A stretch of DNA of 50,426 bases from the NCBI GenBank assembly GCA_013530545.1, contig SPVA01000047.1, forward strand, positions 1 through 50,426, written 5' to 3'. Positions 9,234 through 50,426 of this stretch are shown one piece after another. The DNA comes from Acinetobacter lwoffii. GTDB taxonomy: Bacteria; Pseudomonadota; Gammaproteobacteria; Pseudomonadales; Moraxellaceae. The notes below the pieces were generated by a model. That model saw only the letters and a program-made list of their open reading frames with translations. It had not been told where the DNA came from and ran no database searches. The translations under genes were made by a program, and so were the position numbers. How positions within the stretch are numbered: the stretch's first letter is position 1; the number at the start of each line of letters is the position of its first letter.

Positions 9234-9395
9234 TAAAAATTATAGTGCCAGCTCACCCTTGATGTACAGCGCAGTTTGTTTTGGATTTGCAAAAGTTTGT
9301 AATTCACGAAAACAAGGAAACTTTACCGCAGGCTTTTGCTTTTAAATCACACTGCACTGTAGATCATCCGGCAACAAAACGATGGTCATGGATTT

Positions 9396-11432
9396 ATGCA
9401 AAAGAAAAATGAAGAGATGCGAGATGGTCTGAATAAAGTAGTTTTTTATTTTTCGGCGACACTTATTCTGCTGTTTTCTATCATCACCATTTTATTTAAT
9501 GAACAAGCCAATCAAGTCATTATCAATATCTTAAACTGGGTTAGTCGTACCTTTAGCTGGTATTACCTGCTGGCGGCCACGCTGTATCTGGTTTTTATCG
9601 TCTTTATCGCCTGCTCACGTTATGGCGAGATTAAATTAGGCCCCAAACATTCCAAGCCAGAATTTAGCCTGCTGAGTTGGTCGGCGATGCTATTTTCTGC
9701 CGGAATCGGGATTGACCTGATGTTTTTCTCGGTGGCGGAACCACTTTCCCATTATATGAATCCGCCTATAGGCGAAGGTGAAACCTTTGAAGCTGCGCGC
9801 CAGTCCATGGTGTGGACCCTGTTTCACTACGGTTTAACCGGCTGGAGTATGTACGCGCTGATTGGGGTCGCCCTAGGTTATTTCAGTTACCGCTACAATT
9901 TACCGCTCACCATCCGATCAGCACTCTATCCTATTTTTGGAAAAAGAATTAATGGCCCGATCGGCCATACGGTGGATACGGCTGCAGTACTTGGCACAAT
10001 TTTCGGTATTGCTACGACCTGCGGGATTGGCGTTGTGCAATTAAATTACGGCCTGCATGTATTGTTTGATTTACCAGAAAATATCTGGATTCAAACTGTA
10101 CTCATCGCCGTTGCCGTGATTATTACTATTATTTCAGTCACTGCCGGTGTCAATAAAGGCATCCGAATCCTGTCTGAAATTAATATCTATGTGTCAATTG
10201 GGCTGCTGCTATTCATTCTGTTTGTAGGCAATACCGAGTTTTTATTAGCCGCCTTGATTCAGAATTTTGGTGACTATATCAGCCAGTTCCCGAAGCTTTC
10301 TTTAACCAGTTTTCCTTTTGAACAACCGAAAGAGTGGATGAATAGCTGGACCCTGTTCTTCTGGGCATGGTGGATCGCCTGGTCACCTTTTGTTGGTCTG
10401 TTCCTGGCCCGTATTTCCCGTGGTCGTACCATTCGCGAATTTGTCACCGGGACTTTGGTTATTCCTCTGTTATTTACCCTGACCTGGTTGTCTATTTTCG
10501 GTAACAGTGCTTTATACAGCGTGATTTTTGATGGTAATACTCAACTTGCTACGACAGTTTTAGAAAATCCGGCACATGGTTTTTATGATCTGCTGGCGCA
10601 GTATCCAGGCTTTATGTTTACTGCAGGTGTCGCCACCATTACCGGCTTGCTGTTCTATGTGACCTCAGCGGATTCAGGGGCATTGGTATTGGGAAATTTC
10701 ACCACCAAATTCACTAATATTGAGCATGATTCACCGCGCTGGCTGAGTGTGTTCTGGGCCATTGCCATCGGTTTGCTGACTTTGGCAATGCTCATGGCGA
10801 ATGGCGTGACAGCATTACAGAACACTACGATTATTATGGGTCTGCCTTTTAGTTTCGTCATTTTCTTTGTGATGGCCGGACTGTATAAGTCCTTGCGTCT
10901 GGAGGATTTTCGTCAGGCCAGTACTAGCCTGAATGCGGCACCTGTGGTCGGCAATGTGGATATCCTGAACTGGAAGAAGCGTCTGAGCCGGGTCATGCTG
11001 CATCCAAGCCTGTCCCAGACCCGGACCATGCTGGACAATGTCTGCAAGCCGGCCATTGAGGCCGTTGCAACCGAGTTAATTGACAAAGGCATTCAAGTCA
11101 ATATTCAGGAAAAATCACTTGAGGAAGAACCTGAACTGTATCACCTGGATCTGACCATTCAGCTCGATGAAGAAGAAAACTTTGTTTATGAAATATGGCC
11201 AGTACGCTATGACACGCCAAATTTCAGTTCACGTGGTAAACGAACCAAACGTTATTACTATCGTCTGGAAAGTTATCTGTTTGAAGGCTCTCAGGGCAAC
11301 GATCTGGTCGGTTATAGCAAGGAACAGGTGATCAATGACATCCTGGATAAATATGAACGCCATATGATGTATTTGCATATTAACCGGATCAGCCCAGGTA
11401 AACGTCCGCTGTTCCCGGATCGTGAAATCTAG
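9396..11432 (+). CDS. betT: High-affinity choline transporter, BCCT family
   Basis: Proton-coupled choline uptake across the inner membrane, feeding BetA and BetB. The 678-residue protein has about 12 membrane segments (residues 15-510) and the BCCT signature tryptophans in FFWAWWIAWSPFVGLFLARI. A hydrophilic tail of roughly 160 residues follows. Such a long tail is the osmosensing feature of osmotically activated BetT proteins, in contrast to short constitutive forms. It diverges from betI across a 269-base region containing the probable BetI operator. The downstream MarC-type gene starts 25 bases after it and may be co-transcribed. Confidence 0.93.
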   Translation: MQKKNEEMRDGLNKVVFYFSATLILLFSIITILFNEQANQVIINILNWVSRTFSWYYLLAATLYLVFIVFIACSRYGEIKLGPKHSKPEFSLLSWSAMLFSAGIGIDLMFFSVAEPLSHYMNPPIGEGETFEAARQSMVWTLFHYGLTGWSMYALIGVALGYFSYRYNLPLTIRSALYPIFGKRINGPIGHTVDTAAVLGTIFGIATTCGIGVVQLNYGLHVLFDLPENIWIQTVLIAVAVIITIISVTAGVNKGIRILSEINIYVSIGLLLFILFVGNTEFLLAALIQNFGDYISQFPKLSLTSFPFEQPKEWMNSWTLFFWAWWIAWSPFVGLFLARISRGRTIREFVTGTLVIPLLFTLTWLSIFGNSALYSVIFDGNTQLATTVLENPAHGFYDLLAQYPGFMFTAGVATITGLLFYVTSADSGALVLGNFTTKFTNIEHDSPRWLSVFWAIAIGLLTLAMLMANGVTALQNTTIIMGLPFSFVIFFVMAGLYKSLRLEDFRQASTSLNAAPVVGNVDILNWKKRLSRVMLHPSLSQTRTMLDNVCKPAIEAVATELIDKGIQVNIQEKSLEEEPELYHLDLTIQLDEEENFVYEIWPVRYDTPNFSSRGKRTKRYYYRLESYLFEGSQGNDLVGYSKEQVINDILDKYERHMMYLHINRISPGKRPLFPDREI

Positions 11433-19575: not shown

Positions 19576-19592
19576 AGCAAATAGCATGCCAT
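19576..19592 (-). promoter_or_regulatory. Sigma-54 promoter of the nitrite channel gene
   Basis: TGGCATGCTATTTGC on the minus strand: TGGCA at -24 and TTGC at -12 with exact GG-N10-GC spacing. Predicted start near 19565, a few bases before hairpin P1 of the leader. Confidence 0.85.
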
Positions 19593-19654: not shown

Positions 19655-19671
19655 TTGGCACAATCTCTGCA
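19655..19671 (+). promoter_or_regulatory. Sigma-54 promoter of cynS
   Basis: TTGGCACAATCTCTGCA: a perfect -24 TGGCAC and a -12 TGC with GG-N10-GC spacing. Predicted start near 19682, about 34 bases before the cynS ATG. It is back to back with the nitrite channel promoter, about 65 bases apart. Confidence 0.85.
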
Positions 19672-36685: not shown

Positions 36686-36702
36686 TGGCATGTTTTTTGC
36701 TT
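36686..36702 (+). promoter_or_regulatory. Sigma-54 promoter of nasT-nasS
   Basis: ATGGCATGTTTTTTGCT: TGGCAT at -24, TTGCT at -12, GG-N10-GC spacing. Predicted start near 36712, 35 bases before the nasT ATG. Confidence 0.82.
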
Positions 36703-40759: not shown

Positions 40760-40777
40760 ATGGCATCCATTTTGCTT
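40760..40777 (+). promoter_or_regulatory. Sigma-54 promoter of the ABC permease operon
   Basis: ATGGCATCCATTTTGCTT: TGGCAT at -24, TTGCT at -12, GG-N10-GC spacing. Predicted start near 40787, inside the operator-like repeat at 40783-40810. Confidence 0.82.
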
Positions 40778-40782
40778 AGTCA

Positions 40783-40810
40783 GTATTACGTTTTATAAAA
40801 TTTGTAATAT
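40783..40810. promoter_or_regulatory. Operator-like inverted repeat at the permease transcription start
   Basis: GTATTAC-N14-GTAATAT, arms complementary over six bases. A 28-bp site of the same length and arm type lies at the predicted start of the NikR-like operon (48428-48455). The layout GTATTA-N16-TAATAT echoes the NikR site GTATGA-N16-TCATAC. The NikR-fold regulator at 47845 is the likely binder (inferred). Confidence 0.55.
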
Positions 40811-40824
40811 TGAGGGGCAACACT

Positions 40825-41769
40825 ATGAGTTACGTTGCACGTGAACTCAGTCAAAGAAATAAACTACTGTTTGGCTTGGGGTCTTTTTTAATACCAATTC
40901 TAATTTGGTGTGCAGTCAGCTACTTGCCATTTATCTGGCATCCACAAGTCCAGATTACTGATTCAGGTAGTGTTGCCTATTTACAGGTAGAGAGTCGTAT
41001 TGATAAAGACCAGTTTTTTTCTGCTGCGCAGTCTGCGGTAGATCAAGGTCTGGCTCCGCCGCAGGGTATTCTGGTCAACCCGATTTATCTGCCTGCACCG
41101 CATGAAGTTGCGATTGCACTGATCACAGCTTTTACCACGGAGCCGGCTCAGGCCAATGCGCCCTGGTTTCATGAAAGCCTGTGGCACAGTATCAAGCTGG
41201 TCTTTAGCGCGTTCTTTATTTCTTCCTTGATTGGTATTCCACTCGGTATTTTATGTGGGTTTTCAAATAAATTTTCCCAGCTGACCGAACCCTTTGTCGA
41301 GTTCTTCCGTTACTTGCCTGCTCCGGCTTTTGGTGCACTTGCAGTTGCGATATTAGGGATCAATGATGCACCTAAAATAGCCATTATTGTGATTGGAACC
41401 CTGTTCCAGATGATTCTGCTGATTGCCAACACTACTCGTCTGGTTGATCGCAGCCTGATTGAAGCCGGTTTTACCCTAGGTACCAATAAAATCAAAAGTC
41501 TGTTTTATGTGGTGATTCCAGCAGCCATGCCAGAAATTTACCGTAATCTGCGCGTGCTGCTGGGTTGGGCATGGACTTACCTGATCGTGGCTGAACTAAT
41601 AGGCAGTACCTCCGGGATTACCTGGTTTATTACCCAGCAAGCCCGCTATCAGAACTTCGACAATGTCTTTGCCGCGATCCTGATCATTGGGGTGATTGGT
41701 CTGCTGTGTGATGTGATTTTAATGAAACTGGGACAACGCTTATTTAAATGGAAACCGGGAGCTAACTGA
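40825..41769 (+). CDS. ABC transporter permease, nitrate/taurine/guanidine type
   Basis: The 314-residue inner-membrane permease starts MSYVARELSQRN at 40825, with GAGGGG 7 bases upstream. It has one N-terminal membrane helix, a periplasmic stretch of about 60 residues, then the BPD_transp_1 domain. GFTLGTNKIKSLFYVVIPAAMPEI is the coupling loop that contacts the ATPase. It belongs to the NrtB/TauC/SsuC group. The matching ATPase overlaps its stop, and the solute-binding lipoprotein is encoded on the other strand at 45006. A guanidine riboswitch in the same operon suggests the cargo is guanidine or a related nitrogen compound (inferred). Confidence 0.86.
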   Translation: MSYVARELSQRNKLLFGLGSFLIPILIWCAVSYLPFIWHPQVQITDSGSVAYLQVESRIDKDQFFSAAQSAVDQGLAPPQGILVNPIYLPAPHEVAIALITAFTTEPAQANAPWFHESLWHSIKLVFSAFFISSLIGIPLGILCGFSNKFSQLTEPFVEFFRYLPAPAFGALAVAILGINDAPKIAIIVIGTLFQMILLIANTTRLVDRSLIEAGFTLGTNKIKSLFYVVIPAAMPEIYRNLRVLLGWAWTYLIVAELIGSTSGITWFITQQARYQNFDNVFAAILIIGVIGLLCDVILMKLGQRLFKWKPGAN

Positions 41770-42615
41770 TGCAAAACACTGAATTTAATACCCGCGAATA
41801 CTTTGACAAGATTTATAGCCGTCCGGTGATTCTGGAAAACCGAACGTACGGTTTTAAATGCACTCAATTTGAAAATTCATAAGCGGGAGTTCATCTGTGT
41901 GATTGGGCCTTCCGGTTGCGGCAAGTCAACCTTTAGCCGTGTAGTCGCCGGTCTGGATCCTTATAGCAGTGGTGAGATTCTGGTGGATGGTCAGCCGATT
42001 ACCGGCCCAAGTCCGGAACGTGGCATGGTGTTTCAGGGCTATACCCTGTTTCCATGGAAAACCGTCAAGGAAAATGTCATGTTTGGTCCGCGCATGAAAG
42101 GCCAAAGTAGTGCAGCGGCCGAAGCACAGGCACGTGAATGGATCAATATTATTGGTCTGGAAAAGTATGAAAACCAGTATCCGCATGAGCTGTCTGGCGG
42201 GATGAAACAGCGTGTCGCGATTGCCCGGGCTTTGGTCAATGAACCGAAAATCCTGTTGATGGATGAACCTTTTGGGGCACTTGATCCGCATACCCGACAA
42301 AAAATGCAGCGTCACCTGATGGACCTGTGGCAAAACATCGACATTACCATCATCTTTGTAACGCATGATATGGATGAAGCCATCCTTTTGGCCGACCGTA
42401 TTGTGGCGCTGAAAGCCAATCCGGGTGAAATCAAGGAAATTATCGAAGTTGATCTACCTCGTCCACGCCATCCAGACGTCATGCTTAGTCCTGAATTTAA
42501 ACAGTTAAGACAACGTGTCGATTATCTGGTGCATGCTGAAGAAGATGAACTGGATCCGGCACTGGCAGAACTGCCGGTCATTCCGCGTATGACCAAGGTC
42601 AGCAGCAATAAATAA
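41769..42615 (+). pseudogene. ABC transporter ATPase of the permease system, frameshifted near the N-terminus
   Basis: An ATG overlapping the permease stop (TGATG) opens MQNTEFNTREYFDKIYSRP-VILEN, typical of the Acinetobacter protein, then leaves frame at about 41840. The second frame resumes at TERTVLNALNLKIHKREF and holds Walker A (GPSGCGKSTFSR), the signature LSGGMKQRVAIARAL, Walker B (ILLMDEPFGALDP) and THDMDEA. About 14-17 bp seem to be missing between AAAAC repeats, removing the first beta-strand turn (inferred). A TTG at 41869 could give a shortened protein, but that would lack the first strand of the fold. The rest is intact. Confidence 0.82.
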
Positions 42616-42629
42616 TCTTATCCAAAATG

Positions 42630-42686
42630 CCTTTGGGACGACCCGAAGGTTTTAATCGCTGTGTTGGACGACCAACATTAGAGGTG
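42630..42686 (+). promoter_or_regulatory. Guanidine-II (mini-ykkC) riboswitch
   Basis: Two hairpins with identical ACGA tetraloops, each closed by G-C pairs: P1 42630-42649 (CCTTTGGG-ACGA-CCCGAAGG) and P2 42662-42677 (TGTTGG-ACGA-CCAACA). A 12-base linker joins them, and GAGGTG follows at 42681. This is the mini-ykkC architecture, in which free guanidine bridges the two ACGR loops and exposes the ribosome site. It sits after the ATPase and controls dioxygenase translation. Confidence 0.9.
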
Positions 42687-42692
42687 ATTGTC

Positions 42693-43700
42693 ATGCAAGC
42701 GCAATATGTACTCCCACTGGTTGATATTTCAAAATTGCAAAGTCCGGATTTAGCCGATCGTATTGAAGTTGCTCATGCTCTGGATCATGCCTGTAAAGAA
42801 GTTGGATTTCTTTATCTGCAAGGTAGCCAGTTTAATTTTGATTACGCCAAAGCCCTGATTGAAATGGCTCAGTCCTATTTTTCTCAGGATCTGGACACCA
42901 AAATGCAGCACTATATTGGCAAATCAAAAAACCATAGTGGCTATGTGCCGATTGGCGAAGAACAGTTTGCCGGCAACAGTTATGATTTAAAAGAAGCCTA
43001 TGATGTCAATTATGATTATCAGGGGGTAAGAAAAGACTGTCCTTTACTTGGGCCCACCTTATGGCCAGACCATCCGGATTTCAAGTCTATTGTCAGCCAA
43101 TACTATAGTCATCTGCGTGAGATCAGCCGGCAGATTTTTTCTGCCTTTGCACTGGCGTTGGGCGTTCGTGAGGACTTTTTTGAAAGCAAAATTACTGATG
43201 CACCAAGTCAGCTACGCTTGATTCATTATCCTTATAATCCGGAAGTGAAAGACGCCGAAGGCATTGGCGCACATACCGATTACGAATGCTTTACCCTGCT
43301 GTTACCAACCGCACCCGGCTTACAGGTTTTGAATAAAGCCGGTGAATGGATCGACATTCCCCTGATTGAAAATACACTGGTGATGAATATCGGGGACATG
43401 ATGGAAATTCTGTCAAATGGTAAATATCTCGCCACCAAGCACCGCGTGAAAAAGGTCTCGGAAGAACGTTATTCATTCCCGCTGTTTTGCGCCTGCAATT
43501 ATGACACCGTGATTGAACCGGTTATTCACACTGAAAATTCCAAATATTCTGCCCTGATCGGGGGCGAACATCTATTTAATCAGACCGCCCAGACCTTTCA
43601 ATATTTAAAACATCGCGTTGCTAGCGGTGAACTGGTCTTAAAAAATGCTGTACCACTTTCCTCTTTTGGACTTGAAGAACAGGCGGAGACAGCATCATGA
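42693..43700 (+). CDS. Fe(II)/2-oxoglutarate dioxygenase, isopenicillin N synthase-like
   Basis: The 335-residue protein has a DIOX_N region (LPLVDISKL at the start) and a 2OG-Fe(II) domain. The iron ligands are in GIGAHTDYECF (His, Asp) and ATKHRV (His), with the 2-oxoglutarate Arg in SEERYSFP. The start at 42693 has GAGGTG 6 bases before it. A guanidine-II riboswitch lies directly upstream. Relatives in this fold include the ethylene-forming enzyme and homoarginine hydroxylases, which release guanidine from arginine-like substrates. A similar role, or hydroxylation of a guanidino compound, is plausible but not shown. The next gene overlaps its stop. Confidence 0.85.
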   Translation: MQAQYVLPLVDISKLQSPDLADRIEVAHALDHACKEVGFLYLQGSQFNFDYAKALIEMAQSYFSQDLDTKMQHYIGKSKNHSGYVPIGEEQFAGNSYDLKEAYDVNYDYQGVRKDCPLLGPTLWPDHPDFKSIVSQYYSHLREISRQIFSAFALALGVREDFFESKITDAPSQLRLIHYPYNPEVKDAEGIGAHTDYECFTLLLPTAPGLQVLNKAGEWIDIPLIENTLVMNIGDMMEILSNGKYLATKHRVKKVSEERYSFPLFCACNYDTVIEPVIHTENSKYSALIGGEHLFNQTAQTFQYLKHRVASGELVLKNAVPLSSFGLEEQAETAS

Positions 43701-44578
43701 ATCTGTTTGAAGTAATTAAAACTTTAAAGCCCACTACCCCTCAGCCAGAGATTATTCCTGACTTTTTATATGGGGCATTTCGGCGTAAAAGCATCAGCTT
43801 TTATAATGGCCTAACTGATGAAAATACCATTGTGTACTGGTTTCAGTCGCACAGTTTTACCATTGATCTTCGTTTAAAAAGCCAGATAGAAACTGCTGTT
43901 CAGGAACGCCAAGGCTGGATTGGCAATACGATTTGGGATAGCACCAACCAGTTATTGTCCTGGGAGGTGAAAGACTACGCCAATTACCAGAATCATGTGC
44001 AGTGGCCGGAACCAGCCAGATTACATGCGATTGGTAACTGCATTCTGGAATTTTCTCCAAGTAATGTGTATGTCGAAGACTGGCGCCAGCAGGTACAGCA
44101 CGGTTTATTTTTAGGGCTGCGGCTGCAATCTGCGATTGATGTTCAATCTGGTCAGACACTGGAAATGGATGGTGGCCTGATTATTTGCGCTGATCATATT
44201 GCTTATGCTCTGACGCGTTTGCCTGAAGTGCAAAGTGCAGTAGCTCAAATGGACTTTAAAGCTGTCGATCCGACCGTGTTTACCTTGTTAGAAAGTTTTG
44301 AGGTTTCTATTAGTATTGATGGTCAAAGTAAAACTTATAGCACTCGCAGCAATGAAACAGGTAAAGCCTTTAATCTGGAAAATTTTGAAGTTCTCGATGA
44401 AACCCGTCTGGTTCAGCACGTCATTTTAGATGGTCGCGACATTGACCTGATTTTTGAGCTGGATATATACCAGCCGGATTACCAATTTCAATATACAACC
44501 CCCACGACTACACAAGCTGAAATCTGGCTGAAGTCAGAACAGGATCACCTGATGCAGCATGCAGAACGGGCGTTATAG
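43697..44578 (+). CDS. Hypothetical protein, possible two-domain beta-barrel
   Basis: The 293-residue protein overlaps the dioxygenase stop (ATGA), so the two are coupled. It has no signal peptide or membrane helix. A conserved-looking pattern is FRRKSISF, VYWFQSHSFTIDLRL, LLSWEVKDYA, then VYVEDWRQQ. This resembles the calycin/HRI1-like beta-barrel proteins of unknown function, but I would not rely on that. Being translated with a guanidine-controlled dioxygenase and an exporter suggests a part in handling the substrate or product. Confidence 0.75.
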   Translation: MNLFEVIKTLKPTTPQPEIIPDFLYGAFRRKSISFYNGLTDENTIVYWFQSHSFTIDLRLKSQIETAVQERQGWIGNTIWDSTNQLLSWEVKDYANYQNHVQWPEPARLHAIGNCILEFSPSNVYVEDWRQQVQHGLFLGLRLQSAIDVQSGQTLEMDGGLIICADHIAYALTRLPEVQSAVAQMDFKAVDPTVFTLLESFEVSISIDGQSKTYSTRSNETGKAFNLENFEVLDETRLVQHVILDGRDIDLIFELDIYQPDYQFQYTTPTTTQAEIWLKSEQDHLMQHAERAL

Positions 44579-44586
44579 GGAGAAAT

Positions 44587-44916
44587 ATGTCTTTTTTATA
44601 TCTGTCGATTGCCATTATTGCAGAAGTCATTGCTACTTCAGCATTGAAAGCTTCCAATGGTTTTAGCGTGCTCTGGCCTTCACTTGCCACCATTGCCGGT
44701 TATGCCGTTGCCCTGTTTTTCCTGTCACTGACCATGAAAACCATTCCGATGGGCATTGCCTATGCAATCTGGTCTGGTGCCGGCATTATCTTGATTTCAA
44801 CGGTTGGCCTCTTGGTGTTTAAACAGCAACTGGATCTTCCCGCGCTGATCGGTCTGGCGTTTATGATCATTGGCATTATTTTTATCAATGTCTTTTCCAA
44901 AAGTACGCAGCTTTAA
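44587..44916 (+). CDS. abeS: Small multidrug resistance exporter, AbeS/EmrE-like
   Basis: The 109-residue protein has four membrane helices, the essential Glu in IIAEVIATSALKAS, and MGIAYAIWSGAGIILIS in helix 3. It is close to A. baumannii AbeS. SMR proteins export cations in exchange for protons; AbeS and EmrE belong to the drug (Qac) branch. Guanidine-II riboswitches often control the Gdx guanidinium-export branch. This copy lies downstream of such a switch, yet its sequence looks Qac-like. GGGAG precedes the ATG, 9 bases after the previous gene. Confidence 0.88.
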   Translation: MSFLYLSIAIIAEVIATSALKASNGFSVLWPSLATIAGYAVALFFLSLTMKTIPMGIAYAIWSGAGIILISTVGLLVFKQQLDLPALIGLAFMIIGIIFINVFSKSTQL

Positions 44917-44940
44917 TTTTTTAATATTCATCTGACTAAT

Positions 44941-44970
44941 AAAAAATCCCCAATCTGGGGATTATTTATT
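44941..44970. terminator. Bidirectional terminator between abeS and the solute-binding protein gene
   Basis: AATCCCCA pairs with TGGGGATT around a 3-base loop. Six T's follow on the minus strand and a looser T-rich tract on the plus strand. Confidence 0.85.
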
Positions 44971-45005
44971 AGTTTAGAATACCTTCCAGAATGAGGCGGC
45001 ATGCT

Positions 45006-46028
45006 CTATTTGAGTTCTTGCACCAGCGTTGGAACAATCACGCCATCCACATTCATTTCAGTCGTATAAATGCCGTTGGCTACATTGAACTTGTTCACAT
45101 GATAGCTGGAACCATAGATCGAGTCGAAACCATCACCTTTGGTAAAGACTTTCTTGTTGGCGGCCAGATCCAGTAAATGTGTGCCATCAATGAACTGCAT
45201 ATAGGTCTTCGCATCGACACCAACCCGCTTGGACATGATCTGTGCAGCGTCTTCTCGAGTCGCCGGGTCATTGATATATTTGACAGTTTTATCCCAAACC
45301 TGAATCACCTTTTTCCATTGCTCTTTATTGGCTTCCAGATGGGCAGGATTCACGGTCAAGGTATCGTAGATTAACCCCGGCTTGTCTTTAGAGGTAAAAA
45401 TAATCTTGGAACCGGCCACCGCAGATAAAGCCTGATTTGCTACTGGCTGCCATACCGCAATTGCATCAATATCGGGAGTAGCAAAAACCTGTGGCAATTC
45501 ATTGGTCATGGTATTGACCAGTTTGACCTCATTCAGGCCAACTTTGGCATCATCCAGTGCAGTGGACAGTAACAAGTGATCGACCAGACCTTTTTCAGTG
45601 GCTACGGTTTTACCGCGCAGATCCTGAATCGAATTAATGCCATTCTTGGCAATAATCACGTCATTTCCAGCTGAATAATCGGTCGCCATGATCATCACGC
45701 CCTTGGTCCCGCCAGAGCCAGTGACCAGATTATCACCATTAGTGACCATGACCGCATCCAGCTGGTTGGCAGCAAAAGCTGAAAGTGAGGCTGAATAGTC
45801 AAACCATTTAAAATCAGCATTGACTCCAGCTTCCTCTAACCAGCCTTTTTCAATCGCAACTTGCCACGCAACCCAACCCGGCCAGTCGCTATAACCAATC
45901 CGGATGGGTTGAGTATTTACAGTACCTTCAGCCTTGGCATTTGGTTCAGGTACTTTAGCGGTATTGTCACAACCGCTTAAAAGGATTGCAGACAGTACGG
46001 AAACTGACATCTGTGCTTTTTTGATCAT
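45006..46028 (-). CDS. ABC transporter substrate-binding lipoprotein, NitT/TauT type
   Basis: The 340-residue protein starts MIKKAQMSVSVLSAILLSGC, a lipoprotein signal with lipobox LLSGC, so it is anchored in the periplasm. IRIGYSDWPGWVAWQVAIEK is typical of the NMT1/TauA-like fold that binds small nitrogen or sulfur compounds. The start at 46028 overlaps the atzF stop as ATGA, with GGGGAAG upstream. Its permease and ATPase lie on the other strand at 40825-42615. Binding of guanidine, urea or a biuret-like amide is inferred from the neighbours. Confidence 0.88.
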   Translation of the reverse strand: MIKKAQMSVSVLSAILLSGCDNTAKVPEPNAKAEGTVNTQPIRIGYSDWPGWVAWQVAIEKGWLEEAGVNADFKWFDYSASLSAFAANQLDAVMVTNGDNLVTGSGGTKGVMIMATDYSAGNDVIIAKNGINSIQDLRGKTVATEKGLVDHLLLSTALDDAKVGLNEVKLVNTMTNELPQVFATPDIDAIAVWQPVANQALSAVAGSKIIFTSKDKPGLIYDTLTVNPAHLEANKEQWKKVIQVWDKTVKYINDPATREDAAQIMSKRVGVDAKTYMQFIDGTHLLDLAANKKVFTKGDGFDSIYGSSYHVNKFNVANGIYTTEMNVDGVIVPTLVQELK

Positions 46029-47833
46029 TTTGCGACTTCCCCTATGCATTCACATTTAAATTTGGTATTTGAAAGTTGTTTAGATTTCATAAATTCGCGC
46101 CAGCCACCGAAATGACTAATATCTGTTGCATCCTCAAGTGCATAGCCTTCACAGATAAAGCCTTTGACCCAAGTACCATCAATCAGCTGAACATTACCGA
46201 TCCCCAATGGTGCCGGAACTTCTGCAACAATGTCTCCGAACAGTGCACGCGGAATGTCCCAGACTTCGACTTCAATTGAACAACCTTTCGCGTTGTATTG
46301 GAGGCCGGGTTTTGGTGGTGTGGTATTTTTTAAAGCATAGAGTTTGTAATGCGAAGCAGTCCGGGTCTGCTTGATCAGGGTGCCACTGCGTGTGGTCAGC
46401 TGAAAGTTCAGCGGCATTCTACTTAGATGTGCACCGACGACAGCCAGTTTGACGCTGTGATCCGATGAGATTTCAGTTGTTTTTTCATAGCTAAGTTCAG
46501 AGGTGCCTAGCTTTAACTGGCTCGATTGCTGCCATTTTTGCCCGAATTTGGCCAGTGCTTCATCCATCCAGGCTGGCGCAATAAAGGTCACACCCGTTGG
46601 AAGACCATCAGCACGAATGCTATTTGGTAATGCCAAAGCCGACAGGTCGGCAAAATTGACAAAATTGGTATAAGCGCCCATGTGGCTGTTTTTTACCAGA
46701 GGATCGGCTTCTACTTCTGCAATGCGATAAATGGTGGGTGCAGTAGGCACCATCAAGGCATCATAATCTGCCAGTGTATTTTGAATAACACGGCTCAGGT
46801 GGGCACGTTCATATTCATCCTGCATGACATCGACCGCATTGAACCGGTCTGCCTGCGCAATAATCTGGCCAATGACCGGATGGGTCTGCTCGCGTTGCAC
46901 CATTTTTTCCACGGCACTGGTACGTTCAGCCACCCAAGAGCGGTTATACAAGGCCGCTGCCAGTTGTTGAAATGGAGCAAAATCAATCGGCTCAACCGTA
47001 TAACCCAAGCTTTGTACACGTGCGATCGCCAGCTGGAATGCTTTTTCAGTTTCAGCATCGCCATAAAATTCGAGTGTATCCGGAATGGCAATTTTCCCTT
47101 TTGAAAATTGGCTCGGTTCATTCTGAGGATGCATTCTGGAATAATCATCGCTGGCATCATAGCCTTGCATAACTTGCGCTACCTGCCAGGCGTCATCCAC
47201 AGTCAAAGCAAAAACCGAAATCACATCGATGGTGCGGCAAGCCGGAATCAGGCCTGAAGTCGAGAACCAGCCTTTGGTTGGTTTGAGTCCGACAATGTTA
47301 TTGTGCCCTGCCGGTACACGTCCTGAACCTGCAGTATCTGTACCCAGACTGAATGGCACTTGTCCATTTGCCACAGCAACACTTGAACCGGAACTCGAAC
47401 CACCACTGATATATTCAGGATTAAAGCTGTTCTTCACCGCGCCGTATGGAGAGCGCACACCGACTAAGCCTGTGGCAAACTGGTCCAGATTGGTTTTACC
47501 CACGACAATCGCGCCGGCAGCTTTTAATTTGGCGACTGCTGTTGCATCGGAAGTTGCCAGATAAGCTACCTCTTTACATGCTGCTGTGGTATAGAACCCT
47601 GCAACATCAATATTGTCCTTGACTGCAAATGGCACCCCATAAAGTGGCAAGCTTGCACTATCTGCACCAGTCAATGCATCAATTTGTGCCTGTAATTGTG
47701 CTGCTGTTGCAATTGAAATCCAGGCATAATCGTCATTATTCAATCCGGCAACATACTCAATCAGGTCACTGAGCTGGATATTGTTATTCTGGTAGGCGTG
47801 TTGCCAGTCCTGTACAGTCCATAAGTTGTGCAC
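46025..47833 (-). CDS. atzF: Allophanate hydrolase
   Basis: AtzF splits allophanate into ammonia and CO2, ending urea, biuret, guanidine and s-triazine breakdown. The 602-residue chain has the amidase domain (about residues 1-440): Lys in GVPFAVKDNIDV, then SGGSSSGSSVAVANG and TDTAGSGRVPAG with the Ser-cisSer-Lys triad. The C-terminal allophanate domain follows (about 475-600), ending near the Gly-Gly-rich HFGGWREFM. A urea or guanidine carboxylase to make allophanate is not in the window. It is second in the NikR-like operon. Confidence 0.93.
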   Translation of the reverse strand: MHNLWTVQDWQHAYQNNNIQLSDLIEYVAGLNNDDYAWISIATAAQLQAQIDALTGADSASLPLYGVPFAVKDNIDVAGFYTTAACKEVAYLATSDATAVAKLKAAGAIVVGKTNLDQFATGLVGVRSPYGAVKNSFNPEYISGGSSSGSSVAVANGQVPFSLGTDTAGSGRVPAGHNNIVGLKPTKGWFSTSGLIPACRTIDVISVFALTVDDAWQVAQVMQGYDASDDYSRMHPQNEPSQFSKGKIAIPDTLEFYGDAETEKAFQLAIARVQSLGYTVEPIDFAPFQQLAAALYNRSWVAERTSAVEKMVQREQTHPVIGQIIAQADRFNAVDVMQDEYERAHLSRVIQNTLADYDALMVPTAPTIYRIAEVEADPLVKNSHMGAYTNFVNFADLSALALPNSIRADGLPTGVTFIAPAWMDEALAKFGQKWQQSSQLKLGTSELSYEKTTEISSDHSVKLAVVGAHLSRMPLNFQLTTRSGTLIKQTRTASHYKLYALKNTTPPKPGLQYNAKGCSIEVEVWDIPRALFGDIVAEVPAPLGIGNVQLIDGTWVKGFICEGYALEDATDISHFGGWREFMKSKQLSNTKFKCECIGEVAK

Positions 47834-47844
47834 AGCTGTTCTCC

Positions 47845-48288
47845 TTAAGTGTGTTCGGTATTTTGTGGAATAGGCGGCATGACGGCATCCATCAGTTCGA
47901 GATGCCCTTTAATCACGCCTTTCAGTGCAATAAATTGTTCGCTAATTTCTTTCAGGTCACTGCTCGCGCCCTGCATCAGCATGACTTGCAGAATTTTTTC
48001 ATCATCCAGCTGGATATGAAGCGAATTGATCACTTGTGCCAGATACTGCTGCTGCAGATCGACCAGCTGACTACGCAGCGGTTTCAGGCTGACGTCATAG
48101 AGCAAGGTAAGTGTGCCAACCATGACTTCATCGCGAATCACCAGATCATCAATCAGGTGACGGTTAATCATGTCGACAATGGCCTGCGAACGGCTTTCAT
48201 AGTGTTGCTCGACAATCTTTTGATCCATTGCCTGTAATGTGGTTTCTGGCACGGTGATACTGATCCGTGCTAATTTGGCTTTAGGCAC
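47845..48288 (-). CDS. NikR-fold transcription regulator lacking most nickel ligands
   Basis: The 147-residue protein starts at a GTG (48288) with AAGGA 8 bases upstream. A ribbon-helix-helix DNA-binding domain (LARISITVPETTLQAMDQ, then SRSQAIVDMINRHL) is followed by an ACT-like domain that aligns with NikR over GTLTLLYDV to KGVIKGHLELMD. Of the four E. coli NikR nickel ligands only His87 is kept (His91 here). His76, His89 and Cys95 become Gln80, Gln93 and Ile99. It should therefore sense something other than nickel. It heads nikR-like-atzF-SBP, with operator-like repeats at its own promoter and the permease promoter. Confidence 0.85.
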   Translation of the reverse strand: MPKAKLARISITVPETTLQAMDQKIVEQHYESRSQAIVDMINRHLIDDLVIRDEVMVGTLTLLYDVSLKPLRSQLVDLQQQYLAQVINSLHIQLDDEKILQVMLMQGASSDLKEISEQFIALKGVIKGHLELMDAVMPPIPQNTEHT

Positions 48289-48412
48289 GATGTTGATCCT
48301 TAGGTTGATAGTGTGAAGACTGTTTAATGTGAAAGCCTGCGCGTACGCTGAGAAGCTCAACCAGAAAGTGAAGCCATGGATGCATTTTTTTATTTGAGGT
48401 TGAATTGTTCAT
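48281..48412 (-). CDS. Small ORF overlapping the NikR-like gene (43 residues)
   Basis: It starts MNNSTSNKKMHPWLHFLVEL behind an excellent ribosome site (CAGGAGATGCAC then ATG). The stop lies 8 bases inside the NikR-like gene, whose GTG it overlaps. It is the first frame on the sigma-54 transcript. It could be a real small protein or a leader peptide that couples translation to the regulator. No family recognised. Confidence 0.5.
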   Translation of the reverse strand: MNNSTSNKKMHPWLHFLVELLSVRAGFHIKQSSHYQPKDQHRA

Positions 48413-48427
48413 GTGCATCTCCTGTGA

Positions 48428-48455
48428 ATATTACAAAACCAAAATTTCGTATTAC
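48428..48455. promoter_or_regulatory. Operator-like repeat at the NikR-like operon start
   Basis: ATATTAC-N14-GTATTAC, half-site pair of the GTAWTAY type, 28 bp long. It covers about +1 to +27 of the transcript predicted from the sigma-54 promoter at 48465. Same length, spacing and position as the site before the permease (40783-40810). Confidence 0.55.
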
Positions 48456-48464
48456 TTAGGAAAA

Positions 48465-48481
48465 TGCAGAAAGCGTGCCAG
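48465..48481 (-). promoter_or_regulatory. Sigma-54 promoter of the NikR-like operon
   Basis: CTGGCACGCTTTCTGCA on the minus strand: perfect TGGCAC at -24, TGC at -12, GG-N10-GC spacing. Predicted start near 48455. Confidence 0.85.
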
Positions 48482-48861: not shown

Positions 48862-49170
48862 CTAAAGGATGTTTAATAATGGCAAGCACTTCTTAGATAA
48901 TTTTTTACATCTTTTATAGATGGCATCTCGACGATCTACATCTAGTACCAAAACGACAATTTTGAAGTCGATAAGCTGATATACTAAGCGATAGCCTGCC
49001 GATCTAAGTTTCACTTTATATAAATTAACAGAGCCACTGAGTTTGTTTTTCGGGATTTTGGGGTTATCTAATATTGTTTCGAGCTTACGAATGAACTGTT
49101 CTGCGATTTGCGGATTCAGCTTATCAAACTTTTTAAGCGCGGTTTTTGTGAACTCGAGCTCGTAGGTCAT
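48862..49170 (-). CDS. relE: RelE/ParE-family toxin
   Basis: The 102-residue protein starts MTYELEFTKTALKKFDKLNP and has the RelE-fold pattern AGYRLVYQ and VDRRDAIYKR with basic residues near the C-terminus. RelE toxins cut mRNA in the ribosome; ParE relatives act on gyrase, and the sequence alone does not fully separate them. It overlaps the antitoxin gene by 38 bases, so its ribosome site is inside that gene. Confidence 0.88.
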   Translation of the reverse strand: MTYELEFTKTALKKFDKLNPQIAEQFIRKLETILDNPKIPKNKLSGSVNLYKVKLRSAGYRLVYQLIDFKIVVLVLDVDRRDAIYKRCKKLSKKCLPLLNIL

Positions 49171-49408
49171 CTAGGCTTACCTTTACAGTGTCTTCTGTTT
49201 GCGCTTCTTCGGCTAGTATCAATAGTTCTTTGTCTTCAATCAGATCCATCAGGCGTTCATACATATCCGCAGGTACGCAATAGAATGCTGGATTATTACG
49301 ATTAAGGATGGCAACTGCTTCACCAAAGCCGTTATTGACCACTTCCATTGGGTTCTTTTTTAGGTCTGATACGCTTGCGACAAAGCGTGAATGGATAATA
49401 TTGTTCAT
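49133..49408 (-). CDS. relB: RelB/Phd-type antitoxin
   Basis: The 91-residue protein begins MNNIIHSRFVASVSDLKKNP, a Phd/YefM-like DNA-binding start (S-D-L-K-K-N-P). NNGFGEAVAILNRNNPAFY and the helical C-terminal region then bind toxin. It precedes and overlaps the toxin gene, the usual order. The last 12 codons are shared with the toxin start in another frame. Confidence 0.88.
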   Translation of the reverse strand: MNNIIHSRFVASVSDLKKNPMEVVNNGFGEAVAILNRNNPAFYCVPADMYERLMDLIEDKELLILAEEAQTEDTVKVSLDDLRARVHKNRA

Positions 49409-49415
49409 CTTGGCG

Positions 49416-49428
49416 ATGTCCTAGACAT
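49416..49428. promoter_or_regulatory. Possible toxin-antitoxin operator
   Basis: ATGTC-CTA-GACAT, a short palindrome 8 bases before the antitoxin ATG, where autoregulation by the complex would be expected. Confidence 0.35.
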
Positions 49429-49453
49429 GTAAACAATAGTCAAATGATAACCA

Positions 49454-49483
49454 ATTTAGAGATCTTTTAAAAGGTCTCCAAAT
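49454..49483. repeat. Imperfect 30-bp palindrome between HEPN gene and antitoxin gene
   Basis: ATTTAGAGATCTTTT against its near-complement (two mismatches). No T run follows on the minus strand, so terminator activity for the HEPN gene is uncertain. Confidence 0.4.
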
Positions 49484-49494
49484 CGGTCTATTTC

Positions 49495-50307
49495 TTAACG
49501 ATGTAAAATATTTTCAATGTGATTATTTAACATTTCTATACTCTCTATAACTTTATCTAGTAGAAAGTCTAAAGCCTTCCCATAGCCACTACTTACAGAT
49601 GATGGGTCAAATCCTAACCTTCTTAGAAGCTCTAATGCCTCTCCAACAGATTCGTGTGCTTCCGCATTTCTTAGATCATTATTTATAAAAAGTGGTGCCA
49701 TTTTAAAATTAGGCTTTAATACATCGAAATCTATTGAGTAACCAATTAGTGCTTCTTTTGACTCATAATCATCATCAAGCTTTTCAAATATATTTAGTAA
49801 AATTTGTAATAATTTAAGAGTTTTGAAGTCATTAATTCTTTTTCTTTCTACACCTAATGTAACCAAAATGTTTTTGATGCTTCCAGGCTTTAATCTCATC
49901 AAAATTTCATTAATAGTTTTACATCTACTCAAGAAATCTTGCTCGTACATATTAAGAGGGGCTATTTGATATAACCTTGCAAATATAGGAAATGCTCTAA
50001 AACCTTCTCTTTCATAATTATCAATTACAAATTCCGAGAATTTCGAAGTATCACTATTTCCAGTCAATAATAGGTCTAGTTTGGTTAAATTTGCAGTTAA
50101 ACTACATAATTGTAATAAAAACTTTTCTGCTTTTTTTACAATATTTTCCTGACTCAAATCAAACTGATTAACTTCAATTTGAGTTAAGGCATATTGATAT
50201 ATATGCAAAATTTCTTCATCAGGTACATTTTTATATAACTCGTATAAAGATACTCTAACTAAATTTCGACCTTCTCTTAAACAATTTTGAAATGACCACT
50301 GTCCTTT
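49495..50307 (-). pseudogene. HEPN-type (abortive-infection-like) gene, 5' end removed by an IS element
   Basis: The frame runs for about 270 codons with no ATG before the IS boundary. It stays open up to the transposase stop codon (50335), in the same frame, so the original N-terminus is gone. The C-terminal third holds NNDLRNAEAHESVG, matching the Rx4H motif of HEPN ribonucleases, with helical sequence around it. The coding DNA is much more AT-rich than its neighbours, suggesting transfer. HEPN proteins often act in phage defence and toxin systems; a toxin-antitoxin pair is next to it. Family assignment rests on this one motif, so it is moderate. Confidence 0.6.
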
Positions 50308-50426
50308 TGTATTAGCCCCCGTAAAAACGGACAGTTAACTTGCTAATTTTAGCAATCGATACTCCTGAGGAGATTTCATTTTTAGCCCACTATGAGGATG
50401 ATTGCAATTGTAATCTTCAATCCAAG
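50308..50426 (-). mobile_element. IS3-family insertion sequence, right end (partial)
   Basis: The terminus TGTATTAGCCCCCGTAAAAA has the TG start and C-run of IS3-group inverted repeats. The transposase reads inward from the window edge. Only about 119 bases are in the window, so the other end and target duplication cannot be seen. Confidence 0.8.
50335..50426 (-). CDS. IS3-family transposase OrfB, C-terminal end (partial)
   Basis: The last 29 codons read WIEDYNCNHPHSGLKMKSPQ then EYRLLKLAS, typical of the integrase-type OrfB C-terminus (NxxHPHSGLKMKSPxEY). The gene continues beyond the window. Confidence 0.85.
   Translation of the reverse strand, partial: WIEDYNCNHPHSGLKMKSPQEYRLLKLAS

Follow-up and report, generated by a model that had tools for sequence, protein, structure and literature searches.

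A candidate methylguanidine and guanidine nitrogen regulon with a NikR-like regulator in Acinetobacter lwoffii

Gene content of the cluster

We analysed a 50,426-nucleotide stretch of Acinetobacter lwoffii (contig SPVA01000047.1 of assembly GCA_013530545.1; hereafter the window), which is an entire contig (C31) of a 2.96-Mb genome that is 93% complete and comprises 127 contigs, and describe a candidate gene cluster for the use of methylguanidine and guanidine at positions 40761–48480. As read from the sequence, the cluster consists of two converging transcripts. On the plus strand, a sigma-54 promoter-like site and an operator are followed by genes for the permease and the ATPase of an ATP-binding cassette (ABC) importer, a guanidine-II riboswitch, and genes for a dioxygenase, a protein of 293 amino acids (aa) and a small multidrug resistance (SMR) transporter. 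The minus-strand transcript has the order sigma-54 site, operator, small open reading frame (ORF), nikR-like gene, atzF and binding lipoprotein gene (Table 1). The closest named relatives by the 293-aa protein, an MgdL homologue, are Acinetobacter lwoffii, A. pecorum, and Acinetobacter sp. BY419 (87–92% identity).

An earlier note made from the sequence alone had placed a guanidine or amide scavenging cluster under three control layers here, with an ABC transporter split over two strands, a dioxygenase, an unknown protein, an SMR exporter, an allophanate hydrolase, a NikR-fold regulator, two bounding sigma-54 promoters, paired operator-like repeats and a guanidine riboswitch. All of these features were recovered, with permease and ATPase on the plus strand and the binding protein on the minus strand, and guanidine scavenging and the three control layers were judged right. 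The ATPase gene had to be corrected to a frameshifted one, the small ORF upstream of the regulator gene had been missed, and amide scavenging found no support of its own.

Table 1. Features of the cluster, with positions in the window
Feature	Position	Strand	Basis or remark
Sigma-54 promoter-like site, transcript 1	40761..40776	+	Pattern match; kept in relatives
Operator 1, GTATTAC-N14-GTAATAT	40783..40810	+	Just 3' of sigma-54 site
ABC importer permease	40825..41769	+	Pfam PF00528 (BPD_transp_1), 86.5 bits
ABC importer ATPase, frameshifted	41770..42615	+	35 bp absent after ~41835; ORF resumes at 41869 without N-terminal part
Guanidine-II (mini-ykkC) riboswitch, two GGACGACC hairpins	42630..42676	+	Rfam 27.3 bits; covariation; fold
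mgdH homologue, predicted methylguanidine hydroxylase	42693..43700	+	Pfam DIOX_N and 2OG-FeII_Oxy; 2-oxoglutarate/Fe(II) dioxygenase
mgdL homologue, predicted N-(hydroxymethyl)guanidine lyase, 293 aa	43697..44578	+	Profile-profile match; D57/R59
SMR transporter, EmrE/Qac type (Multi_Drug_Res)	44587..44916	+	Pfam/NCBIfam
Importer substrate-binding lipoprotein (NMT1-type)	45006..46028	-	Pfam/NCBIfam; start picked by eye
atzF, allophanate hydrolase (Amidase and AH_C)	46025..47833	-	TIGR02713 775 bits, cut-off 511
NikR-fold ribbon-helix-helix regulator (NikR_C)	47845..48288	-	Pfam; three of four nickel ligands replaced
Conserved small ORF, 43 aa	48281..48412	-	Stop overlaps nikR start
Operator 2, GTAATAC-N14-GTAATAT	48428..48455	-	Pattern; 39/39 relatives including the window
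Sigma-54 promoter-like site, transcript 2	48465..48480	-	33/39 by the pattern used

MgdH and MgdL homologues, their riboswitch and the guanidine pathway

According to excerpts of PMC12508155, the 2-oxoglutarate dioxygenase MgdH of Vreelandella boliviensis hydroxylates methylguanidine, and MgdL, which requires D49 and R51, splits the hemiaminal into guanidine and formaldehyde. Our references for both proteins were genes of the operon at locus L171 (genus of G365), not the published Vreelandella accessions. This locus encodes permease, ATPase, cgdA, cgdB, a guanidine-II element, gca, a 354-aa dioxygenase, a 238-aa protein and atzF; its order gca-mgdH-mgdL-atzF is the published Vreelandella order, and its 238-aa protein carries an Asp/Arg pair at residues 49 and 51, matching published MgdL. 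The window dioxygenase is 49% identical to L171 MgdH over 329 aa, and H194, D196, H250, R259, and S261 are unchanged in an alignment of 11 MgdH-like sequences; from the enzyme family we take the first three to be metal ligands and the last two to serve 2-oxoglutarate binding. Pfam contained no family for the 293-aa protein and PDB sequence searches gave no usable match, but hhalign aligned it to L171 MgdL over 189 columns (probability 97.4, E 1.2e-11), placing D57/R59 onto D49/R51 and aligning a later Y-x-E-x-W as well. D57 and R59 are invariant across 39 MgdL sequences, and the structure model (pLDDT 93.5) is mainly beta-strand. The dioxygenase and the unknown protein of the earlier note are thus now recognized as homologues of MgdH and MgdL, and their genes are adjacent in all 80 named mgdHL loci, which are the best 80 of 146 found. 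In a midpoint-rooted tree of 41 MgdH-like proteins (of 43 candidate rows, to which 31 of the 80 named loci contributed; L014 and L169 were dropped for a stop in the match or short length), the root separates Acinetobacter, sphingomonad, Pseudomonas/marine, and gca-operon sequences from those of the Pot-transporter type.

The guanidine-II match upstream of mgdH lies below the Rfam gathering cut-off of 32 bits, which is a detection threshold and not a structural feature; the element at L171 scores 42.6 bits. Both hairpin loops of the window element read GGACGACC and contain the ACGR tetraloop. Of the 81 regions compared upstream of mgdH, 80 from named loci and one from the window, 59 contain two GGACGRCC loops at suitable spacing; the remaining 22 comprise 19 sphingomonad loci, the truncated contig L106, L129, and L134. 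In hairpin 2, the three pairs adjacent to the core are paired in all 32 distinct hairpins and two of them vary (CG/TA; GC/TG/TA/AT/GT), with shuffle maxima of 28 and 26. In hairpin 1, the second pair is held in 33 and the third in 31 of 35 (shuffle maxima 31 and 30), and the outer pairs decay. Because the stems covary, we regard the riboswitch proposed in the earlier note as settled, which the Rfam score alone would not do. The window RNA also folds more stably than shuffles (z -3.5), and the predicted fold pairs the mgdH Shine-Dalgarno stretch with the linker, an arrangement that would, as expected, fit a translational switch. The guanidine-II riboswitch of V. boliviensis binds guanidine and methylguanidine about equally (excerpts of PMC12508155). 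In five Acinetobacter loci (L075, L076, L077, L078, L095), both loops read GGACGGCC with ACGG tetraloops instead of GGACGACC, and these elements could differ in ligand preference. Sphingomonad loci (L100–L127) have mgdHL without guanidine-II; many of them share a CATAG...CTATGAC-like motif 5' of mgdH (by eye), and some a weakly LysR-like gene divergent from mgdH.

Neither a carboxylase nor a carboxyguanidine deiminase is encoded in the window, as the earlier note had stated, and homologues of both were found elsewhere in the genome. A search of the genome for the urea carboxylase family recovered two full-length enzymes, on contigs C101 and C32. On C101, a guanidine-I riboswitch (72.4 bits, cut-off 63) precedes cgdA, cgdB and gca, a guanidine carboxylase homologue of 1215 aa. 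The first two genes, named by gene order, belong to the UAAP1 family (266 bits against a cut-off of 206) and the UAAP2 family (310 bits against a cut-off of 285), respectively, and the operon carries the same sigma-54/operator pair as the window. Because of this operon, we attribute allophanate supply to the known pathway and rejected an unknown route; of the two options left by the earlier note, a supply unlike known pathways has therefore been abandoned in favour of genes encoded elsewhere. The C32 carboxylase, which lies beside a GntR-like regulator (by eye), may be a true urea carboxylase. Several relatives have gca on the far side of nikR, oriented the same way and with variable inserts between the two genes, and in five such relatives the window and C101 each align up to that gap, with the exception that L068 also shares window positions 49122–49471. 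The window cluster and the C101 operon are probably neighbours across an assembly break, as judged from these alignments. The variable site between nikR and gca is occupied in the window (48862–50426) by a RelE/YefM-like toxin–antitoxin pair, an unclassified ORF and a contig end resembling an insertion sequence (by eye), and in L045 and L046 by an OLD-like ATPase (622 and 628 aa, respectively).

The SMR transporter scores 121.6 bits with the Qac model (cut-off 188), 116.2 bits with EmrE (cut-off 162) and 60.7 bits with SugE. Assignment as a Gdx exporter was rejected because the Qac and EmrE models score above SugE, so that the exporter of the earlier note stands as an EmrE/Qac-type protein; a separate SugE/Gdx-type gene is present elsewhere in the genome. 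By family scores the transporter is like the EmrE/Qac exporters, from which it differs by its position behind a guanidine riboswitch. This position is typical of Gdx-type exporters (excerpts of PMC9574504), and many guanidine-riboswitch-associated SMR genes carry an emrE annotation (excerpts of PMC12186494).

Sigma-54 sites, a shared operator and a NikR-like regulator

The pattern TGGCAYN5YTGCW matched five times in the window (0.54 expected), with two of the matches at the borders of the cluster, and GTAWTAY-N14-GTAWTAY matched twice (0.00 expected in shuffles), in agreement with the promoters and repeats of the earlier note. Among relatives, the window included and loci without a permease or nikR match above 60% identity omitted, a sigma-54 site followed by an operator (first letter G or A) precedes the permease gene in 44 of 44 loci, and nikR is preceded by an operator in 39 of 39 and by a sigma-54 match in 33 of 39. 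Upstream of cgdA, an operator, a sigma-54 site and a guanidine-I core were present in all 14 loci examined; here the operator is upstream of the sigma-54 site, and at the other two promoters downstream of it. The exact operator pattern occurs at three places in the 2.96-Mb genome, the two window promoters and the gca operon (reversed control, 0), and a sigma-54 site accompanies it at all three. Expected counts, the reversed control and conservation led us to reject a chance origin of these sites. Further sigma-54-like sites at window positions 19576–19591, 19656–19671, and 36686–36701 lie near a gene of the formate/nitrite transporter type and a block of nitrate/nitrite assimilation genes that includes cofactor genes (by eye).

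In a survey of 175 genomes of the genus, an MgdL homologue was encoded in 59, of which 58 also had a nikR-like gene, and at least one operator match was present in 122. At least three strand matches, a threshold set after seeing the counts and with a palindromic site counted twice, were found in 86 of 97 NikR-positive genomes (two of which, G392 and G494, hold NikR fragments only) compared to 4 of 78 NikR-negative ones; one or two matches were found in 9 and 23 genomes, respectively. The clusters of six of the 39 regulator-positive genomes without mgdL were compared. None of the six contained a guanidine-II motif or mgdL, one (L179) had an MgdH-like gene (43%) near its edge, and nikR was preceded by a sigma-54 site and an operator in 6/6. 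Since these clusters keep the regulon without guanidine-II or mgdL, the gene content suggests that an older guanidine regulon acquired mgdHL, together with the riboswitch belonging to it, as a cassette.

The regulator matches the solved NikR structure PDB 2bj1 at 80.7 bits. The four positions that are H, H, H, and C in 2bj1, which we take to be the nickel ligands, read Q, H, Q, and I in the window. At least three of the four ligands are lost in all six aligned regulator sequences (L094 keeps the first His only and L138 none), and the six clusters without mgdL read Q, H, Q, and Ile or Val. With three of four ligands gone, we do not class the protein as a nickel sensor, and a canonical one was rejected. 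Its position and co-occurrence with the operator suggest that the NikR-like protein binds the 28-bp site. Between operator 2 and the GTG start of nikR lies the 43-aa ORF, for which Pfam contained no family. All 39 loci had a comparable small ORF with a core like FLVELLSVRAGFYVKQ, which was weakest in L097 and L126, and the same quick pattern recovered it in four of the six clusters without mgdL. Differences of 0.32, 0.12, and 0.60 at the three codon positions among 37 distinct cores indicate that it is a coding sequence.

Interpretation, alternatives and related loci

The window very probably carries two of the three transcripts of a nitrogen regulon for methylguanidine and guanidine. In the predicted scheme, the ABC importer would take up methylguanidine and guanidine, MgdH would hydroxylate methylguanidine, and MgdL would split the hemiaminal into guanidine and formaldehyde. 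The gca and cgdA/cgdB products encoded on the other contig would then convert guanidine to allophanate, which AtzF would cleave to ammonia and CO2. Transcription would require sigma-54 under nitrogen limitation, and the NikR-like protein would gate it, in whichever direction, from the 28-bp operator, with ligand control added by guanidine-I before cgdA and guanidine-II before mgdH. It is possible, if rather doubtful, that the NikR-like protein is a nickel-independent factor that senses guanidinium, methylguanidinium, carboxyguanidine or allophanate as a protein counterpart of the guanidine riboswitches, forming with sigma-54 a three-input gate of nitrogen limitation, a protein-sensed metabolite and RNA-sensed guanidine, and that the 43-aa protein modulates this regulator.

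Several observations weigh against the methylguanidine and guanidine regulon. Compared to seven relatives, the ATPase gene lacks 35 bp in its N-terminal part, which shifts the frame; 43 of 43 named relatives have an uninterrupted N-terminus. Either this strain has a dead importer or the assembly is in error. The SMR transporter is not of the guanidinium-export (SugE/Gdx) subtype. The window gave no match at Rfam gathering scores and a whole-genome scan at E 0.001 no guanidine-II, and none of eight relatives reaches the guanidine-II cut-off, though seven of them carry the two loops. In a pairwise BLAST comparison, window MgdL matches Vreelandella-type MgdL at only 25.8 bits, and a distant MgdH/MgdL-like pair that neighbours a Pot-type importer and has no guanidine riboswitch shows that pairs of this kind may have other substrates. 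Several relatives' clusters are without atzF, nikR or the binding protein nearby. The operator and regulator are not fully congruent either: fewer than three operator matches were found in 11 of 97 NikR-positive genomes and at least one in 27 of 78 NikR-negative ones. In the clusters without mgdL, where the respective gene is in the stretch, the permease gene is preceded by a sigma-54 site in 5/5 and by an operator in 4/5, and cgdA by a guanidine-I core and a sigma-54 site in 4/4 and by an operator in 2/4.

The dioxygenase and lyase might instead act on another N-alkylguanidine, such as N,N-dimethylguanidine or a natural product of larger size, and only supply guanidine to the same pathway. 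MgdH of V. boliviensis accepts N,N-dimethylguanidine as well (excerpts of PMC12508155), Acinetobacter MgdL is longer than the Vreelandella-type protein (293 vs 238 aa) and distant in sequence, and next to one mgd cassette (L103) there is a divergent MgdH paralogue that has a two-loop guanidine-II motif of its own; we nevertheless consider another substrate unlikely, given that the catalytic pair and the metal ligands are conserved and that window MgdH groups with gca-linked MgdH, apart from the Pot-type, in the midpoint-rooted tree. That the regulator, a clear NikR homologue, acts as a conventional nickel sensor on behalf of a nickel enzyme in nitrogen metabolism, with an indirect link to the cluster, appears very improbable in view of the ligand replacements (Q, Q, and I in the window, and at least three of four lost in the six aligned sequences and the six from clusters without mgdL), the exact operator at only the three guanidine promoters of the genome, and a cluster in which we recognized no nickel enzyme. 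A cluster for the general scavenging of urea, amides or sulfonates with an incidental dioxygenase would accord with the second urea-carboxylase-family enzyme on C32 and with the binding protein, which resembles SsuA (141 bits, cut-off 163.5) and a urea-carboxylase-linked family (138 bits, cut-off 334) below both cut-offs, but two guanidine riboswitch classes, CgdA/CgdB homologues and a common operator tie the cluster to guanidine and leave this explanation scarcely credible.

A regulon for methylguanidine and guanidine resembles the Vreelandella boliviensis operon, which has a dioxygenase followed by a lyase of the MgdL type, riboswitches of both classes (guanidine-I and guanidine-II), the gca, cgdA/B and atzF genes and an ABC importer that includes a binding protein (excerpts of PMC12508155). 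There it is a single operon in which mgdHL is placed between gca and atzF and the guanidine-II element precedes gca (same excerpts), whereas Acinetobacter has three sigma-54 transcripts, guanidine-II before mgdH, a NikR-like regulator, operators, the small ORF, an EmrE-type SMR transporter and a distant MgdL subfamily. Enterobacterial guanidine carboxylase operons share Gca, CgdA/B, AtzF, the importer and two riboswitch classes; excerpts of PMC12186494 do not name mgdHL, and in Acinetobacter gca/cgd and atzF are on separate transcripts. The regulator is like NikR in its ribbon-helix-helix and NikR_C fold and its operator of two half-sites spanning 28 bp, a length that we assume to be a point of likeness, and unlike it in that the nickel ligands are mostly lost and the apparent targets are guanidine genes. 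The chemistry has been known since 2025, and the NikR-like regulator is the new part. The open-access literature searched contained neither NikR together with a guanidine riboswitch nor the Acinetobacter regulon, its NikR-like regulator or the small ORF. Excerpts of the MgdH/MgdL paper (PMC12508155) contain no Acinetobacter, NikR or sigma54, and a co-mention of NikR and urea carboxylase in excerpts of PMC2667541 comes from passages on yeast and a reference. Within that literature, the description of the cluster as undescribed in the earlier note applies to Acinetobacter and its regulation, but not to the MgdH/MgdL pair (excerpts of PMC12508155).

Growth on methylguanidine has been demonstrated for one halophile (excerpts of PMC12508155). 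Because MgdL is encoded in 59 of 175 genomes of the genus and mgdHL-bearing named relatives include Pseudomonas, Marinobacter, Novosphingobium, and Sphingomonas, its use as a nitrogen source may be more widespread than thought; a single-sequence MgdL search in 369 genomes across the class found only three, the genome studied here included, which speaks against wide occurrence. The clusters suggest that a regulator of NikR fold has departed from nickel; its defined operator of 28 bp and its regulon of three promoters make the signal sensed by the regulator a directly testable question.

The top solved match of the MgdL model was yeast YLR301w (3rby_A; Z 13.4 over 195 of 245 residues), obtained by re-aligning the Foldseek list, as Foldseek alone gave nothing at E 0.001. 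The next match, a lipocalin-like protein, reached Z 12.1 over 102 residues only, and most lipocalins cover the first barrel alone. We take YLR301w to be HRI1. The Pfam HRI1 model matches an MgdL-like protein of locus L015 at 27.5 bits (cut-off 27; 26.9 bits with a longer start), and in 398 Pseudomonadota genomes it found two proteins, both under the cut-off, MgdL-like with a D-L-R motif and 3' of guanidine-I riboswitches; among 39 window-type and four Vreelandella-type MgdL proteins there was no match at E 1. YLR301w is labelled uncharacterised in its PDB entry (3rby_A), and since the predicted fold of MgdL matches it, the yeast protein may cleave or bind a hemiaminal.

At L187, L188, and L015 no MgdH was found by tblastn, and a protein of the fatty-acid-desaturase family (di-iron) occupies its place (46% identity between L187 and L015). 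Such loci with an MgdL-like protein possibly represent a second, non-homologous route of alkylguanidine oxidation; a search for more L015-type MgdL in three genomes of the order of G241 was fruitless. The guanidine-I riboswitches of L187 (1384–8992), L188, and L015 score 80.3, 76.3, and 75.3 bits, and L187 additionally encodes two short-chain dehydrogenases/reductases, EamA, a creatininase and an isochorismatase-type hydrolase (the last by eye). In L014 and L166–L170 (family of G365), where no guanidine riboswitch was found, the distant MgdH/MgdL-like pair occurs with a Pot-type importer and in some cases a phytanoyl-CoA-type dioxygenase (by eye), and perhaps serves another N-alkyl substrate. 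The L103 locus of Acinetobacter proteolyticus carries, at 9301–10400, the second two-loop guanidine-II motif, which scores below the Rfam cut-off, together with the MgdH paralogue (41%) and another binding protein next to its mgd cassette.

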